DNA from: an uncultured Bacteroidales bacterium
GTDB taxonomy: Bacteria; Bacteroidota; Bacteroidia; Bacteroidales; F082
Assembly (NCBI GenBank): GCA_900318265.1
Contig: ONKA01000004.1
Span: forward strand, 62,001 to 126,000
Length of the DNA: 64,000 nucleotides
Direction of reading: 5' to 3'
Shown here: positions 18,400 through 24,317 of the stretch, piece after piece
Position numbering within the stretch: position 1 is the stretch's first letter
How the letters are laid out: each line of letters starts with the position of its first letter
Made by a program: the position numbers and the translations under genes
The notes under the pieces: model-generated
What the model was told of the DNA's origin: nothing
Seen by the model: only the letters and a program-made list of their open reading frames with translations
The model's database searches: none

Positions 18400-18475
<76 letters not shown>

Positions 18476-18585: not shown

Positions 18586-19560
18586 TTAGAGATTTTGGCC
18601 CAAAACCTTGGTAGGAGCGAAGCCCTTGATCACACCAGGCTTGATGCAATAGCTTTGCTTAAAGCTATTATATTGGTCAATGGCGTCATGAGTTCCATCG
18701 GTGAAGTAGACATTCACCTTGAAACCATTGACGAGTGCACCAGGACGCATGGAGATGTAGAATACTGTTTGTGTATTCTCGGACAGTTGAACGCCATTGG
18801 GGCAGTTCAAAACCATCGTCTTACCAGCGGGTTCGCTAGAATAACCCAACACTTGGAGATACTCAGCCAAATCAGCCTCGTGGCTACCATAATCAGCGGC
18901 ATAAGCATCCATAATGTCGCTGAAAGTAGTCATGTTAACCTCGTGAAGTTTCATGGTGACATTACCCGACAAGTTAAAAGAATTGTCAACCACTTCGAGA
19001 TGATCAACAGTCTTCACACCTTTCAGTTTCAGACGCATCACACCAAAAATGTGCTTCATCATGAATGACTGTACGTTTTCGGTCTCACAAGCAGCAGCCA
19101 AGCTAGCAGGATCAACGGTAGGATTACCATTGATAGTCGTATAGGTCTGCTCACCAGGCACATTGAAAGTCTCATAATTATCGGCATCAAGAGCAGCAGT
19201 GCCATTAACAATCTTGCTAACGGGATAGAAAACAAAATAATGATCTTTCTTAGCACCCAAGTCATCGCCAGTGAAAATAGCATTAGTTTGGCCTTCTGCA
19301 TTTCCATTAGTAGAATAGATGGTCTTAAAAGTATTAGTACCATCCTCGGCGTCAAGATTATAGAACATCACCTCATCATTGGCATTCCACTTATAGAGAT
19401 TGGTGGTAAAGTCAACATAAAGTCTTCCCTCGTCAACATCACCAAATTCCTCCCATTGGGGAAGGTTAATCGTGACTTCCTTTTCCTCGTTCTTTTTGCA
19501 AGAAGAGGCCAAGAGAGCCATTGAACCCGCTATACAAGCGATAAAAAATAGTTTTTTCAT
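18586..19560 (-). CDS. Fimbrillin-like lipoprotein
   Basis: 324 aa from the ATG at 19560, chosen because the signal peptide (MKKLFFIACIAGSMALLASSC) starts there. The lipobox LASSC gives a lipidated Cys followed by KKNEEKE. The body (NANDEVMFYN, YFVFYPVSKI, MMKHIFGVMRLKLKG) has the pattern of FimbA/Mfa-like fimbrillin-family N-terminal domains. It starts 51 nt after the small peptide gene and shares its likely promoter. It could be an independent fimbrial or surface protein, or the partner or carrier for the peptide locus upstream. The second idea is inference from gene order only. Confidence 0.72.
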   Translation of the reverse strand: MKKLFFIACIAGSMALLASSCKKNEEKEVTINLPQWEEFGDVDEGRLYVDFTTNLYKWNANDEVMFYNLDAEDGTNTFKTIYSTNGNAEGQTNAIFTGDDLGAKKDHYFVFYPVSKIVNGTAALDADNYETFNVPGEQTYTTINGNPTVDPASLAAACETENVQSFMMKHIFGVMRLKLKGVKTVDHLEVVDNSFNLSGNVTMKLHEVNMTTFSDIMDAYAADYGSHEADLAEYLQVLGYSSEPAGKTMVLNCPNGVQLSENTQTVFYISMRPGALVNGFKVNVYFTDGTHDAIDQYNSFKQSYCIKPGVIKGFAPTKVLGQNL

Positions 19561-19611
19561 TCTAATTAACTCCTTTTGGTTTTTCATTACTTAATTTTAT
19601 GAAATATTAGA

Positions 19612-19746
19612 TTATTCATCATCATCACCACCACCACCAATAGTGCCACCAGCATTACCATCCGTTGAGGCCATCAGGACGACGGGCATTTCCATTTCGA
19701 TCATTTCAGCCTTAGGGGCTTCGTAAATTTTGTTCATCTTTTTCAT
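19612..19746 (-). CDS. 44-residue peptide, candidate modified-peptide precursor
   Basis: A short gene starting at the ATG at 19746. The N-terminal half (MKKMNKIYEAPKAEMIEMEM) is charged and leader-like, followed by PVVLMAS. The C-terminal 18 residues (STDGNAGGTIGGGGDDDE) are Gly-rich, hold one Ser and two Thr, and end in an acidic tail. It has its own TACTTTTG box upstream. It follows directly a set of PqqD-like, nucleotidyltransferase, S24/S26 peptidase and HPr-kinase-like genes on the same strand. Small peptides with a similar YxAPxxE leader occur in other Bacteroidales as hypothetical proteins (general knowledge). Being a substrate of the neighbouring enzymes is inference. Confidence 0.7.
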   Translation of the reverse strand: MKKMNKIYEAPKAEMIEMEMPVVLMASTDGNAGGTIGGGGDDDE

Positions 19747-19822
19747 TTTGTTTAATTTTTAATGGTTTGACTTATTGTTGATTAATTGTTTTTGTGTTTC
19801 CTTTTTACACTTTTAGACGCTG

Positions 19823-19830
19823 CAAAAGTA
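19823..19830 (-). promoter_or_regulatory. -7 box for the small peptide gene
   Basis: TACTTTTG on the minus strand, in the 114-nt AT-rich gap after the nucleotidyltransferase stop and 76 nt before the peptide ATG. No clear -33 TTG is seen at standard spacing. It suggests the peptide is transcribed separately from, and perhaps more strongly than, the enzymes. Confidence 0.5.
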
Positions 19831-19860
19831 CATAATTAATTCATTCGCAGCGTAAAAAAT

Positions 19861-20967
19861 TCATTTTTTTTGAAAATTCTTTCTAAAACCCAACTGCAAT
19901 GAGGTTTTTAAATCATGGAAAGCGTACTTGGGGAACACCCCTACTAAATGGAAAAAATCGATAAAAGTACAGATGAAAGCATGAAGCTTTTGCCAAAGAC
20001 GTTTCTTGGGGCGGTTTATCCTAAAACCACGTTCACGCCTAAAATTGCCTTCTTTCATGACACGCTTATACACGATTCTTGCTCGCCTACGACATGAAGC
20101 ATCAAAAAACGGCAACTCGGTTTGCGGCAGTCCAAGACAATCCACTAATAAGAAACCAAATGTCTGCCAAGGTTGCATCAAATGCATAGTGATGAACCAT
20201 TCGCGAAGCTTTTCCAAATCAAGCTGACCACTGTAGGCATGCAATGCCATGGCCACATCACTGAGTTGGCGCCACCCCACACCCGTGGTTGTAAAATGGT
20301 GCCAAGCATGATAAAAAGTGAAAAACACCATGAACTCGCAAGAAGGAACACTGAGTTCAAAACCGTCGACAACAATTCGCTGAGGATACTCTTTCAAGCC
20401 TTCGTGTTCTATTGCTGCATAAACATGATGTTCACTAGCATCCACCACATCGGCACTGACACGATGGATTTCCATGATCACATCACCAAACTCAATATTG
20501 TAATGCCTGCCCGAGTCGACTTCCTCGCACCAATAGTAACAGTTAGGAATCGTCCGTAGCAATGCACAGGCTTCGTGGAAACTATCTAGTCCAACAAACA
20601 GGTCAATATCGCCAGACTGGCGCAAACAAGGGTTGGGATATAGCCCTGCAAGACCAAAACCCTTGAGTACCACCGGCTCGATGTCGTGCTCGCGAAGCAG
20701 CTTGACTGCCGAAAACAAGATGCGTTTCTGTCGCATCTGAAGCATCAGATTGCCTCGCATATAGTCCTGCATCTTTGCCATCATTTTGGGAGACGGCTTT
20801 TGGTCGTCAGTCAAATGGGCGGCAACATCCGACAACAAAACATTGTTGCCATGGTAAAAGGCCATCTGCATGACAGTTTTCCAGTCTATGGCACCTTCAA
20901 TGTCGACAGGCGTTCCCCACAAAGCAGCACGCAACAAGGCTAAATATTGGGTTTCGGCAACGGACAT
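19861..20967 (-). CDS. Nucleotidyltransferase-family protein (NTP_transf_5-like)
   Basis: 368 aa. The motif VLKGFGLAGLYPNP, then RQSGDIDLFV with Asp120 and Asp122, is the active-site signature of the uncharacterised nucleotidyltransferase family that accompanies PqqD-like proteins and lasso-type clusters. A helical N-terminus and a basic C-terminal tail flank it. It starts 14 nt after the PqqD-like gene. In the paeninodin lasso-peptide cluster a nucleotidyltransferase occurs with an HPr-kinase homologue, the same pairing as here (established knowledge). The reaction, perhaps nucleotidylation or a phosphate-linked modification, is not known for this gene. Confidence 0.85.
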   Translation of the reverse strand: MSVAETQYLALLRAALWGTPVDIEGAIDWKTVMQMAFYHGNNVLLSDVAAHLTDDQKPSPKMMAKMQDYMRGNLMLQMRQKRILFSAVKLLREHDIEPVVLKGFGLAGLYPNPCLRQSGDIDLFVGLDSFHEACALLRTIPNCYYWCEEVDSGRHYNIEFGDVIMEIHRVSADVVDASEHHVYAAIEHEGLKEYPQRIVVDGFELSVPSCEFMVFFTFYHAWHHFTTTGVGWRQLSDVAMALHAYSGQLDLEKLREWFITMHLMQPWQTFGFLLVDCLGLPQTELPFFDASCRRRARIVYKRVMKEGNFRRERGFRINRPKKRLWQKLHAFICTFIDFFHLVGVFPKYAFHDLKTSLQLGFRKNFQKK

Positions 20968-20981
20968 TCCTCTACACCTAA

Positions 20982-21248
20982 TTAATTAATGATTTCTGCC
21001 TTTTCCCAAGTTTCAAGCAACGAGGCAACATCTTTTTCAGCCACCTCGTGAGTAATGCCATACTCATCTATGAGGAGACTGATTAATGTGTCAGCATCAA
21101 ATTCCTTGTCTTCCACAGCTTTCCAGAGAAAAGCGGCCGATTCGTTCATCGAAATCAGTCGGTTGGCATCGGCGGCTTCAAGGCCTTCAGCCACCAAGAT
21201 GTATTCCCTACCCAACGAGCGTAATACAAAACCTTTCTTTGTTTTCAT
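20982..21248 (-). CDS. PqqD-like peptide-binding (RRE) protein
   Basis: 88 aa from the ATG at 21248 (MKTKKGFVLRSLGREYILV). It shows the PqqD winged-helix pattern: two N-terminal strands, then LISMNESAAFLWKAVEDKEFDADTLISLLIDEYG and a final helix with DVASLLETW. PqqD domains bind the leader of ribosomally made peptides and present it to modifying enzymes. It sits between an S24/S26 peptidase (26 nt away) and the nucleotidyltransferase (14 nt away). Its presence is the strongest reason to read the operon as peptide modification. Confidence 0.88.
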   Translation of the reverse strand: MKTKKGFVLRSLGREYILVAEGLEAADANRLISMNESAAFLWKAVEDKEFDADTLISLLIDEYGITHEVAEKDVASLLETWEKAEIIN

Positions 21249-21274
21249 ATTTATTTTGAATTTTAGTTGTTTAC

Positions 21275-21709
21275 TTATTCCGGATTTAAGCCTTTCATTT
21301 TGTACCATTTTCTACGCAACTTCAGCATTAATCTTCTGATAAACAATGTATGTCTCCAGAACCATGCCTTATGTGGTTTCCGGCATTGCCCGTTTGGCTT
21401 GATAATCTCCACAACCTTCCCCCACACCAATGACTTCTCAACCTCTTCGTTGCCCTTAAGGTTGCCGTCACCCATCAAGATGAGCCGCATCCCTTCGATG
21501 GCATAAACCCGATGCAGAATCAAGTGACCATCATAAGGAGCCAATACAATATCGCCAATGTCGATTCTCTCATCCATCTTGACAAGCACCTTATCACGAC
21601 CACCTTGAATGAACGGCAACATACTGATACCTTGAGGGGCAAGCTGGATCATCTTACCTTCTCGAAGCCTTTCCAGCAATTCAGCATTTGCTGCTTCTTT
21701 CAACTCCAT
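21275..21709 (-). CDS. S24/S26-family peptidase, signal-peptidase-like (Ser-His type)
   Basis: 144 aa from the ATG at 21709; the frame extends to a GTG one codon earlier. QGISMLP holds the nucleophile Ser29. The strand GDIVLAPYDGHLILHRVYAI places His66 where ER/SipW-type signal peptidases have a catalytic His rather than Lys. The C-terminal part is very basic, with a WFWRHTLFIRRLMLKLRRK stretch that may bind membrane or nucleic acid. There is no strong N-terminal membrane helix. In this operon it may cut the leader of the modified peptide, which is inference. Its ATG overlaps the TGA of the kinase-like gene by 1 nt. Confidence 0.82.
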   Translation of the reverse strand: MELKEAANAELLERLREGKMIQLAPQGISMLPFIQGGRDKVLVKMDERIDIGDIVLAPYDGHLILHRVYAIEGMRLILMGDGNLKGNEEVEKSLVWGKVVEIIKPNGQCRKPHKAWFWRHTLFIRRLMLKLRRKWYKMKGLNPE

Positions 21710-22578
21710 CACTGTGTCACGGTATTATAGCACATCCAAGCCGCATCGGCATTAGGCAAACAATCCAAAGAATAGCAAGGCACCGAACCCACAATCTTCT
21801 CAGTCGTAGCATGAAGTCCATCTGCCATCTCCTTGATGAAACGGTAACCCGAATATGACACATATAAGGAGACATATGCTTCCAACAACGTCTGCCTGCG
21901 AATGCGGTTTACCTTAGCCTGATGCAGGTCAACGATGGCGCCCACAGGGTAATCCAGGTTACGATAGCAAGGCGTCTTACCGCTCCAAGGCGAACCATAA
22001 ACGCGCACCACTCCGTTGTCTTCAACACGCAATACCGGATTGTCATCGTTGAGAAGCTCACATCCTTCTATATTATTGATCCACAATTGACTGTGAGTGC
22101 TCTTACCTGTACCGCTCTTACCCAAAAAGAGATAGGCCTTGCCATCTTTCACAGTCACCGAAGAATGCATTAAAAGTGTGTTCTTTTGGGCGGTAGAAAA
22201 TGCAAACATCAGCATCAGCACCGTACCTATCGAGAATCTCATACTACCTAGCACCCTAAATACACCTTTGGTGAAAGCCTTGTCGGTAATAAGGCTTACA
22301 CGAACGGGGGCTTCAAGTAGCGGAGCCATCTCCAACAGCCATTGGCCTTGCCATTCATAGAGCTCGACACGTGCAGCATCGGGAGCCTCGCAACTAACCG
22401 TAACTTTCTGCTTGTCAGATGTATCCGGCATCATATCAACCATTTCCACCGTAAATACAAGGTCGTCATCGTTTTCCACCATAAAAGGTTCATACGGCTT
22501 CATCTCATTCCATGCCAGATGATTGTCGGGCATGACGACGGCAAACCTGTGACCCGCGACTTGATATATGCTCTTCAT
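21709..22578 (-). CDS. HPr-kinase/PEPCK-like serine kinase homologue
   Basis: 289 aa from the ATG at 22578, which follows a -7 box closely. A non-conserved N-terminal half leads into a P-loop GKSGTGKST (153-161), then LLNDDNP (Asp178/179) and the GSPWSGK loop (195-201), the layout of HPr kinase C-terminal domains. It lacks the full HPrK N-terminal domain. In paeninodin-type lasso clusters such homologues phosphorylate a Ser of the precursor. Here it heads an operon with a peptidase, a PqqD-like protein and a nucleotidyltransferase, so phosphorylation of the small peptide is a fair hypothesis. Confidence 0.85.
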   Translation of the reverse strand: MKSIYQVAGHRFAVVMPDNHLAWNEMKPYEPFMVENDDDLVFTVEMVDMMPDTSDKQKVTVSCEAPDAARVELYEWQGQWLLEMAPLLEAPVRVSLITDKAFTKGVFRVLGSMRFSIGTVLMLMFAFSTAQKNTLLMHSSVTVKDGKAYLFLGKSGTGKSTHSQLWINNIEGCELLNDDNPVLRVEDNGVVRVYGSPWSGKTPCYRNLDYPVGAIVDLHQAKVNRIRRQTLLEAYVSLYVSYSGYRFIKEMADGLHATTEKIVGSVPCYSLDCLPNADAAWMCYNTVTQ

Positions 22579-22594: not shown

Positions 22595-22623
22595 CAAAGA
22601 TAGGCCAAAATATTGTATCTTTG
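22595..22623. promoter_or_regulatory. Divergent -7 boxes between kinase-like gene and lnt
   Basis: TATCTTTG on the plus strand (22616-22623) lies 24 nt before lnt. The same octamer on the minus strand (22595-22602) lies 17 nt before the kinase-like gene, giving a very short leader. The two boxes are only 13 nt apart, so polymerases would compete. Confidence 0.6.
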
Positions 22624-22646
22624 CCCGATTTTTTTGGAAATTTGAC

Positions 22647-24317
22647 ATGAATAGAAAAAAAGAAAAGAAAACGAATGCGTCTCTCCGACAAGCTAAGGGA
22701 CCGCGGCTTCGCAATATACTATTGGCCATATTAAGTGGTGGATTGCTTACGGCTGCTTGGCCGACGTGGGGAATTGCACCCGCTGTATTTATTGGTTTTG
22801 TCCCTCTGTTGCTAATCGAAGGACGTGTGGCAAATGGCGAAAAAGGACATGTCTTTTGGCTTTCATTCCTTGCCTTCTTTGTCTGGAACGTAGCCACCAC
22901 CTGGTGGGTGTGGAACGCTACTCCTGCCGCAATATTGGCCTGGATCCTCAACGCACTCTTTATGGCCACCGTTTTCTACGTGTTTCACCTCACCAAGAAG
23001 AGGGTTTGCAACAACCCATGGGGCAATTTCTTTCTCATCCCCTATTGGATGGCCTTTGAATTGCTCACTTATTGGTGGGCCATCAAGTGGCCTTGGCTCA
23101 ACTTGGGAGGTGTTTTCTCCAGTAAAGTCAGTTGGATTCAATGGTACGAATACACAGGATTGGCCGGAGGAACACTATGGGTATTGATTGTCAATATACT
23201 AATTGCCAACATCATCCAATTCTTTAAGACAAAAGAGGCCAAACCCATCTTGGTCAATATCGGTCTTGAGGCCCTCATCCTCCTCGTGCCCATCATCGTA
23301 AGCAAGCAAGTCTACAAACACTATGAAGACCAAGGCGAGGACACAGAGGTCATCGTGGTGCAGCAGAACTGCGACCCTTGGAACGAGCAATTCAACAGCC
23401 AATTCTACGACCAAGTCATCCAAAACAACATCAATCTTTCACGACCGTTGGTGTCACCGAATACGCGCTTTATCGTCAGCAGCGAATCGGCTATACAGGA
23501 AGGCATCTGGTTGCATGAAACCAACAAGGCCAAGGCACTCAACACCTTGCATGACTACGTTGCCCAATTCCATGAGTTGGCTTTTGTCATCGGAGGCACC
23601 ACCTACGAATGGGTACCCGAAGGCATGGAAGACGACTTCCCTGCTCGCAAACTTGGCAACGGTGAAAAGTACTACTATTGCCACAACTCGGCCCTGCTCA
23701 TCGACAGCGTCGGCTTGCAGCACCGCAACAAGTCACAGCTCACGCCCGCGGTGGAAGCCATACCAGAGTGGATGGGCTTCTTGCGCAACTTCAGTCTTAC
23801 CATGGGCATAGCACGCGGCACCTTGAAAACCGACCCTGAATCTAAAGTCATGACTTTTGACGGACATAAGGTGGCTGTACCGATATGCTATGAGTCTGCT
23901 TTCGGTGAGTATGTCGGCTCGTTCTGTGCCAAAGGTGCCGACTTGATCTTCGTCATTACTAATGACGGCTGGTGGGGCGACACCCCTGGATATAAGCAAC
24001 ATTTTGAGTTCTCCAAGTTAAGAGCCATCGAAAATCGTCGATGCATCGCACGCTCGGCCAACACGGGTCGTTCAGGATTCTTCAACCAACGCGGCGACGT
24101 ACTGCAACAAACCAAATATTGGGAACCCGATGCCATCAAGGCCACTTTGAAAGCAAACCCAAAGGCTACTTTCTATGCCAAAAATGGCGACTACCTCAGC
24201 CGCATCGCGGTGTATGTCACCTTCGTACTGCTCATCACTTGGATAGCCAAATCGTTCCTTGACTTGGGCAAATCACGAAAAGCAGCTAAGGCCTCAGGTA
24301 CGAGAAAGAAAAAATGA
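22647..24317 (+). CDS. lnt: Apolipoprotein N-acyltransferase
   Basis: 556 aa from the ATG at 22647. An N-terminal set of membrane helices (for example ILLAILSGGLLTAAWPTWG) is followed by a nitrilase-like periplasmic domain with SSESAIQEG (Glu), an internal Lys region and PICYESAFGEYVG (Cys nucleophile), and closes on a C-terminal helix. It adds the third acyl chain to lipoproteins. The family is known in Bacteroidetes, and the window encodes several lipoproteins. It overlaps dus by 4 nt (ATGA). Confidence 0.95.
   Translation: MNRKKEKKTNASLRQAKGPRLRNILLAILSGGLLTAAWPTWGIAPAVFIGFVPLLLIEGRVANGEKGHVFWLSFLAFFVWNVATTWWVWNATPAAILAWILNALFMATVFYVFHLTKKRVCNNPWGNFFLIPYWMAFELLTYWWAIKWPWLNLGGVFSSKVSWIQWYEYTGLAGGTLWVLIVNILIANIIQFFKTKEAKPILVNIGLEALILLVPIIVSKQVYKHYEDQGEDTEVIVVQQNCDPWNEQFNSQFYDQVIQNNINLSRPLVSPNTRFIVSSESAIQEGIWLHETNKAKALNTLHDYVAQFHELAFVIGGTTYEWVPEGMEDDFPARKLGNGEKYYYCHNSALLIDSVGLQHRNKSQLTPAVEAIPEWMGFLRNFSLTMGIARGTLKTDPESKVMTFDGHKVAVPICYESAFGEYVGSFCAKGADLIFVITNDGWWGDTPGYKQHFEFSKLRAIENRRCIARSANTGRSGFFNQRGDVLQQTKYWEPDAIKATLKANPKATFYAKNGDYLSRIAVYVTFVLLITWIAKSFLDLGKSRKAAKASGTRKKK

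Follow-up and report, generated by a model that had tools for sequence, protein, structure and literature searches.

In a 64,000-nt window of the genome of an uncultured Bacteroidales bacterium of the F082 lineage (assembly GCA_900318265.1, contig ONKA01000004.1, positions 62,001 to 126,000), six genes on the minus strand encode, in order, an HPrK-like kinase, an S24/S26-like peptidase, a PqqD-type protein, an NTP_transf_5 protein, a 44-residue peptide and a 333-residue lipoprotein. We suggest, with a probability of about three in four, that they form a system for a ribosomally synthesised and post-translationally modified peptide (RiPP) that resembles the Linear Polyphosphorylated Peptides (LPP) of Bacillota described by Popov et al. 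2026 (PMC13381572; this and the other papers cited by PMC number are quoted from parts of their text). The proposal starts from what the genomes establish: the genes and their conservation, a leader/core split in the peptide, its co-occurrence with the enzymes and its pairing with the lipoprotein.

In our model the 44-residue peptide would be the precursor, and the PqqD-type protein would be the RiPP recognition element (RRE) that binds its YxxP leader, a role supported by homology and co-occurrence. The kinase may phosphorylate a serine behind the leader, Ser27 in the window (19 residues past the leader tyrosine, Y+19), and the peptidase may use its Ser-His pair to remove the leader near Ser27, the exact site not being readable from the sequence. 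The NTP_transf_5 protein would, less surely but still probably, add a further group; we give a sugar and a nucleotide equal odds because PsmN of pseudomycoidin has been associated with glycosylation (PMC7533575). The linear phosphopeptide would be exported, by a dedicated MsbA/HlyB-like ABC exporter in many relatives and by another route in the window clade, and the gene pairing suggests that the product may act at the surface together with the adjacent fimbrillin-like lipoprotein. An extension that we consider possible though doubtful is that one central kinase-peptidase-RRE set serves dispersed precursors, most of which are produced together with a variable pilin-like lipoprotein of their own, and that hypervariable linear phosphopeptides are carried or displayed by type V-pilus-like surface structures, giving a RiPP-decorated fibre. 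The first-pass annotation had proposed modification by the kinase and trimming by the S24/S26 enzyme; by analogy with the Bacillota LPP (PMC13381572) this survives in outline, with phosphorylation and nucleotidylation still predictions.

If the model is correct, a RiPP family described as exclusive to Bacillota extends to a second phylum, with at least 588 kinase relatives. The recurrent genetic partner, a pilin-fold surface lipoprotein, hints at the product's site of action; the published LPP family is described without such a partner. RiPP precursors scattered far from their enzymes would also escape gene-cluster mining.

Precursor peptide, modifying enzymes and their co-occurrence

All 18 local peptides have Y, A-P and A-E at fixed positions and diverge thereafter, giving a leader consensus of YxxPxxExIE...(V/I)L(C/M)AS followed by a hypervariable C-terminal tail. 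The split is sharp in four close species pairs: the peptide up to Y+18 is 88–100% identical and the aligned tail 42–61%, with the kinases at 90–99%. Among 110 unique peptides (from 166 profile matches, aligned on the tyrosine), 78% have Ser at Y+19 and every one has Ser or Thr at Y+14 or beyond. The profile that selected these peptides includes the Y+19 column; a leader-only profile, rerun on loci first found with the full profile, places Ser there in 77/99 (E<1) and 48/66 (E<0.01). A profile scan of the window's own genome gave exactly one match, the window peptide. The motif pattern gave a single match there, TACGAGGCCTTGGAAGAAATCATCGAG (reading YEALEEIIE), which we rejected as unrelated in appearance.

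The window kinase appears HPrK-like by its P-loop and motifs: SGTGKST, LLNDD and H138 are invariant in 20/20 aligned sequences. Its family matches are weak (PEPCK_ATP 1.3e-5, just below the cut-off; HprK_rel_A 4.1e-6). The peptidase falls just below the cut-off for S24 (PF00717, 1.7e-4), with profile matches to LexA (E 0.0045) and SEC11A (E 0.03). Its S30, H67, D82 and E89 are invariant in 50/50 relatives, and it is predicted to be SpI-like with catalytic Ser and His, as in LPP systems. The PqqD protein matches PF05402 above the cut-off (6.6e-14); 31/49 of its relatives match the lasso-type model NF033530, and its closest solved relative is TfuB1 (6jx3, E 0.001). The nucleotidyltransferase matches PF14907 above the cut-off (5.3e-31), its G119-D120 and D122 (GD.D) are invariant in 20/20, and sequence searches found no solved relative for it. 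Possible RRE fusions are seen in two genomes, G471 (L302) and G482 (L304), where PqqD matches lie inside long open frames of 807 and 315 residues.

In a sample of 149 genomes of the family, a search with the kinase was positive in 23 (the window's own included), all within one genus; 20 have an orthologous kinase and three (L045–L047) a distant type. The PqqD profile matches exactly the same 23 genomes. The peptide is present in 20/23 kinase genomes versus 0/126 others (Fisher p 6e-22), and the three kinase genomes that lack it are those with the distant kinase type. This test is partly circular, because the profile itself contains local peptides from this genus; two wider tests are less so. 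In a sample of 295 genomes of the order, the peptide occurs in 11/32 kinase genomes (E<=1e-10; one, G183, counted on a weak match of 6e-12) versus 1/263 others (Fisher p 5e-11), and the 12 peptide genomes span nine families; with the kinase threshold at E<=5e-30 the counts are 10/17 versus 2/278. Of 50 further kinase genomes, found by way of other loci, 44 gave a peptide match at E<=0.01; these are a non-random sample, so that 44/50 and 1/263 stem from differently drawn sets. The 50 were drawn from 80 loci: ten with the six-gene order were omitted, as were 20 more that had donated rows, lay on short contigs or exceeded the limit of 50. None of the five loci from beyond the window genus that supplied rows to the profile alignment (A8) is among the 50. 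Relaxing the threshold to E<=0.3 gave a match in 11/16 hitherto peptide-less kinase genomes versus 1/16 kinase-less controls, counts that include likely chance matches, for example within frames of more than 1400 residues.

Many peptide copies are encoded away from the enzyme operon, and the putative precursors are thus dispersed through the genome relative to their enzymes. The first-pass annotation had named homologous operons lacking a small peptide gene as the case that would count against it. Such operons are common; the peptides found in the 44 genomes above lie elsewhere. The annotation had omitted these distant peptides, as well as the ABC exporter of the relatives, which is absent at the window locus.

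A scan of named genomes yielded at least 588 kinase relatives. The best 80 of these are, by title, from Bacteroidales or its subgroups with a few vaguer exceptions, and many come from rumen; S24 is present at 73 of the 80 loci, PqqD at 74, both at 68 and the NTase at 19, some loci being short. An ABC half-transporter of about 540 residues (MsbA/HlyB type) follows the core in 48/65 non-window-type loci with room for it. The human oral Prevotella sp. oral taxon 299 (L337, NC_022111.1) has the kinase-S24-PqqD triad, with no YxxP peptide found in the 10.6 kb covered, a region that carries no annotation in the collection used.

The lipoprotein partner and the six-gene locus

A lipoprotein gene lies directly behind 56/88 testable peptides versus 66/1067 control genes. 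A first lipobox rule had given 45/88 peptides versus 54/1104 controls; it was loosened because it missed evident lipoproteins (e.g. L271 and L282), and the new rule was applied equally to peptides and controls. The testable set leaves out 22 of the 110 unique peptides (17 of the 22 from the window genus), for which the copy of the locus ended within 400 nt. The median gap between peptide and lipoprotein is 15 nt (45 pairs of the first count).

Since no Pfam family scored above its cut-off for the lipoprotein, we turned to a structure model, and the predicted structure has the fimbrillin fold of type V pilins. By lipobox and modelled fold the sixth gene product thus appears to belong to the type V pilin/fimbrillin superfamily, sharing both features with FimA and Mfa1–4 of Bacteroidales. 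Unlike those pilins, it barely reaches Mfa_like_1 (matched by 1/20 members of the lipoprotein family, at E 0.014 only) and is coupled to a RiPP-like peptide gene. Type V pilins are cleaved by Arg proteases near the N terminus; a motif (Arg/Lys)-x-Tyr-(Ile/Val/Leu)-(Asp/Gly/His) is found in 17/20 local lipoproteins, 23–28 residues past the lipobox Cys where measured.

The six-gene order is unbroken in 17/19 orthologous loci besides the window (L026–L042), which argues that the arrangement is not due to chance. The other two, L043 and L044, are rearranged to lipoprotein-NTase-kinase-S24-PqqD and have no local peptide. Their genomes carry 3 and 5 peptide copies elsewhere, and the copies inspected (L205, L208–L210) lie upstream of lipoproteins. 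The annotation had described the peptide gene as the last of five; all five genes are real, and the conserved sixth, which lies within the range it annotated, had been overlooked. It was right about the packing of the first four, where the alternative ATG start of the peptidase at 21709 gives a 1-nt overlap with the kinase gene and the remaining gaps are the 26 and 14 nt of Table 1, and about the P-loop, the GDID, Ser30/His67 and the peptide's own -7 box TACTTTTG.

TAnnTTTG boxes lie upstream of the peptide gene in 18/18 six-gene loci (the window and L026–L042) and upstream of the kinase gene in 18/18, against an expectation of 0.07 per 150 nt in shuffled peptide upstreams. The two boxes point to separate transcription of kinase-S24-PqqD-NTase and of peptide-lipoprotein. 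The gap between peptide and lipoprotein is short (24 or 51 nt, depending on the start chosen for the lipoprotein) and the window lipoprotein has no -7 box within 60 nt upstream, so these two genes would share a transcript.

Relation to known systems and competing explanations

In the published LPP system (PMC13381572) the parts are an SpI-like peptidase LppS, a discrete RRE LppB, an HprK-like kinase LppK, an NTP transferase LppN and an MsbA-like LppD; the precursors have variable C termini and a leader with YxxP, a motif of the kind bound by RREs. A Paenibacillus set expressed in Bacillus subtilis yielded a multiply phosphorylated, trimmed peptide: LppK adds several phosphates to one Ser, at Y+18 by the paper's numbering, and LppS with LppB removes the leader, keeping two residues before the phosphorylated Ser. 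The final product and its role are described as still unsolved (PMC13381572). The window system has the counterparts of the Ser-His leader peptidase, the discrete RRE, the kinase and the NTP transferase, and it shares the YxxP leader, the variable C terminus and a Ser 18–19 residues behind the Tyr; an MsbA-like exporter is found in many of its Bacteroidales relatives. It differs in that its clade has no exporter gene, its host belongs to Bacteroidales and not to Bacillota, many precursors are encoded in trans, the precursors are paired with fimbrillin-like lipoproteins, and no polysaccharide genes lie among the seven flanking genes tested in the window. As three of the tested LPP features (cluster exporter, full leader motif, phylum) do not agree, we use the term LPP-like for the system and do not count it as an LPP.

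Popov et al. state that LPPs occur in Bacillota only, and the main text of their paper contains no word starting with "Bacteroid" (PMC13381572). Homologous sets exist in both phyla, since plasmid pNP243 of the rumen bacterium Butyrivibrio fibrisolvens (Bacillota; L336, NZ_CP146964.1) encodes a kinase, a 57-residue YxxP peptide, a PqqD protein and an S24/S26 peptidase in a row, with matches to the window-family profiles of 7e-32 (kinase), 2e-16 (PqqD) and 2e-18 (S24; 39% identical over 74 residues). This LPP-like plasmid cluster differs in its surroundings, which comprise polysaccharide genes and two ABC proteins, and it shows no annotated lipoprotein and no match to the lipoprotein profile below E 0.07. 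Its peptide contains Cys and is annotated as a hypothetical protein. Lasso clusters of rumen Firmicutes, Butyrivibrio among them, are reported to have HPr kinase, PqqD and nucleotidyltransferase genes nearby, and those reported for B. fibrisolvens come with HPr kinase and NTase (PMC7533575); the plasmid cluster may thus have a lasso context.

A literature search, in which bioRxiv preprints were not covered as such, returned no paper that we recognised as describing the system in Bacteroidota. The available parts of a survey of Bacteroidales RiPPs (PMC10352776) mention neither the nucleotidyltransferase nor S24, and PMC12636315, in the portion seen, concerns a different RiPP, made by an MNIO and lipidated. 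A combination of HprK-related kinase and PqqD-type protein is also found in the HPr-rel-A system (NCBIfam TIGR04352). The window kinase scores 26.1 bits against the cut-off of 200 for that family and so falls outside it.

Several observations weigh against the LPP-like reading. The published leader motif is YxxPxVLxHQxIxFETxxS, of which the window peptide shares YxxP only, and within the window genus only 10/18 local peptides have a Ser exactly at Y+19. Of the four invariant peptidase residues only S30 and H67 recur in the Butyrivibrio homologue; Asp82 and Glu89, the candidate catalytic acids, are not conserved there, and their spacing to the His differs from that of LppS D93 (a comparison made without the LppS sequence). 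LppN was inactive in the heterologous host (PMC13381572). The exporter gene, beside the core in many relatives, is beside it in 0/10 window-type loci, so that peptide and lipoprotein genes take the exporter's place in the window clade; the window genome (89% complete) yielded no dedicated exporter, the best ABC match being 25% identical. At E 0.01 no peptide was found in 21/32 kinase genomes of the order sample, including 7/17 with a strong kinase match, or in 6/50 of the further kinase genomes, and 5/16 peptide-less genomes remain so even at E 0.3. Conversely, G438 (89% complete) has peptides and no kinase or PqqD match. In genus g126 a lipoprotein follows just 1/18 peptides.

The position of the peptide gene just upstream of the lipoprotein gene (56/88, with the short median gap) would also be expected if the short open reading frame were no substrate but a leader or coupling frame regulating translation of the lipoprotein, with the kinase operon acting elsewhere. 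We regard this as improbable: it leaves unexplained both the near-restriction of the peptides to kinase genomes across several families and the conservation, at the level of amino acids, of an RRE-type YxxP motif. The same pairing could mean that the machinery modifies the lipoprotein and that the peptide is an adaptor recruiting the enzymes. Consistent with this, in 3/4 close species pairs the lipoprotein varies more than any other of the five larger proteins, and G391 has one frame of 369 residues (L215:1501–2610) that joins a YxxP peptide to a lipoprotein-like protein, either by natural fusion or by misassembly. However, the lipoprotein has a lipobox and the kinase, PqqD and S24 proteins, by eye, lack an export signal at their starts; in the published LPP system it is the short peptide that the enzymes cleave and phosphorylate (PMC13381572), and 17/18 g126 peptides have no lipoprotein behind them. 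We therefore think an adaptor role quite unlikely.

Very unlikely, in our judgement, is a paeninodin-type lasso system with its cyclase and B2 protease encoded elsewhere. Such clusters share with the window system the HprK-like kinase, the NTase, a discrete PqqD protein (the lasso-type PqqD models fit) and a YxxP/WxxP leader, and lasso RREs use YxxP leaders (PMC13381572). The window locus differs in showing no lasso cyclase or B2 protease: as the first-pass annotation had stated, none is found, nor any transglutaminase-like protease, among the seven flanking genes, to which the search for a cyclase was confined. None was noticed among the recurrent neighbours of other loci, inspected by eye only, and the locus shares an SpI-like peptidase with LPP.

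Features of the window and minor observations

Table 1. Coordinates of the system within the 64,000-nt window
Feature	Position	Strand	Remarks
HPrK-like kinase (KIN, LppK-like)	21709..22578	-	P-loop GKSGTGKST, LLNDDNP motif
S24/S26-like (SpI-type) Ser-His peptidase, LppS-like, 145 aa	21275..21712	-	GTG start
Discrete PqqD-type RRE (predicted), LppB-like, 88 aa	20982..21248	-	PF05402; gap 26 nt
NTP_transf_5 nucleotidyltransferase, LppN-like, GDID	19861..20967	-	PF14907; gap 14 nt
Putative precursor peptide, 44 aa	19612..19746	-	YEAP...E leader, variable tail; gap 114 nt to NTase
Ser27 (Y+19) codon, predicted phosphoacceptor	19666..19668	-	predicted from LppA S3 and Ser frequency at Y+19
Fimbrillin-like (type V pilin fold, modelled) lipoprotein, 333 aa	18586..19587	-	lipobox ...LASSC; second possible start 19560
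-7 box TACTTTTG, peptide-lipoprotein unit	19823..19830	-	such box in 18/18 six-gene loci
-7 box TATCTTTG, kinase-S24-PqqD-NTase unit	22595..22602	-	such box in 18/18 six-gene loci

The operon is flanked by lnt (22641–24317, LNT_N) on one side and tRNA-Phe (18400–18475) on the other. An inverted repeat, ACGCTGC (19817–19823) and GCAGCGT (19847–19853), lies at the -7 box of the peptide, between the NTase and peptide genes, and may be a terminator or an operator.

The three loci of the window genus with the distant kinase (L045, L046 and L047 in G116, G093 and G120) have a PqqD-kinase-S24 set whose neighbours, by eye, are rlmN- and leuS-like genes. With the threshold at E<=0.01 the family scan detected no peptide in these genomes; a later, looser scan gave one in G093 at 0.009, with an internal stop. 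In genus g126 (L213, L217, L222, L227, L228, L231 and L233) the peptides lie 15–35 nt behind large genes, by eye for secreted proteins, and not before lipoproteins; their tails end in ...WGDDE or similar. At L199 and L207, small genes of about 100 residues, by eye for membrane proteins, stand directly behind some of the peptides.

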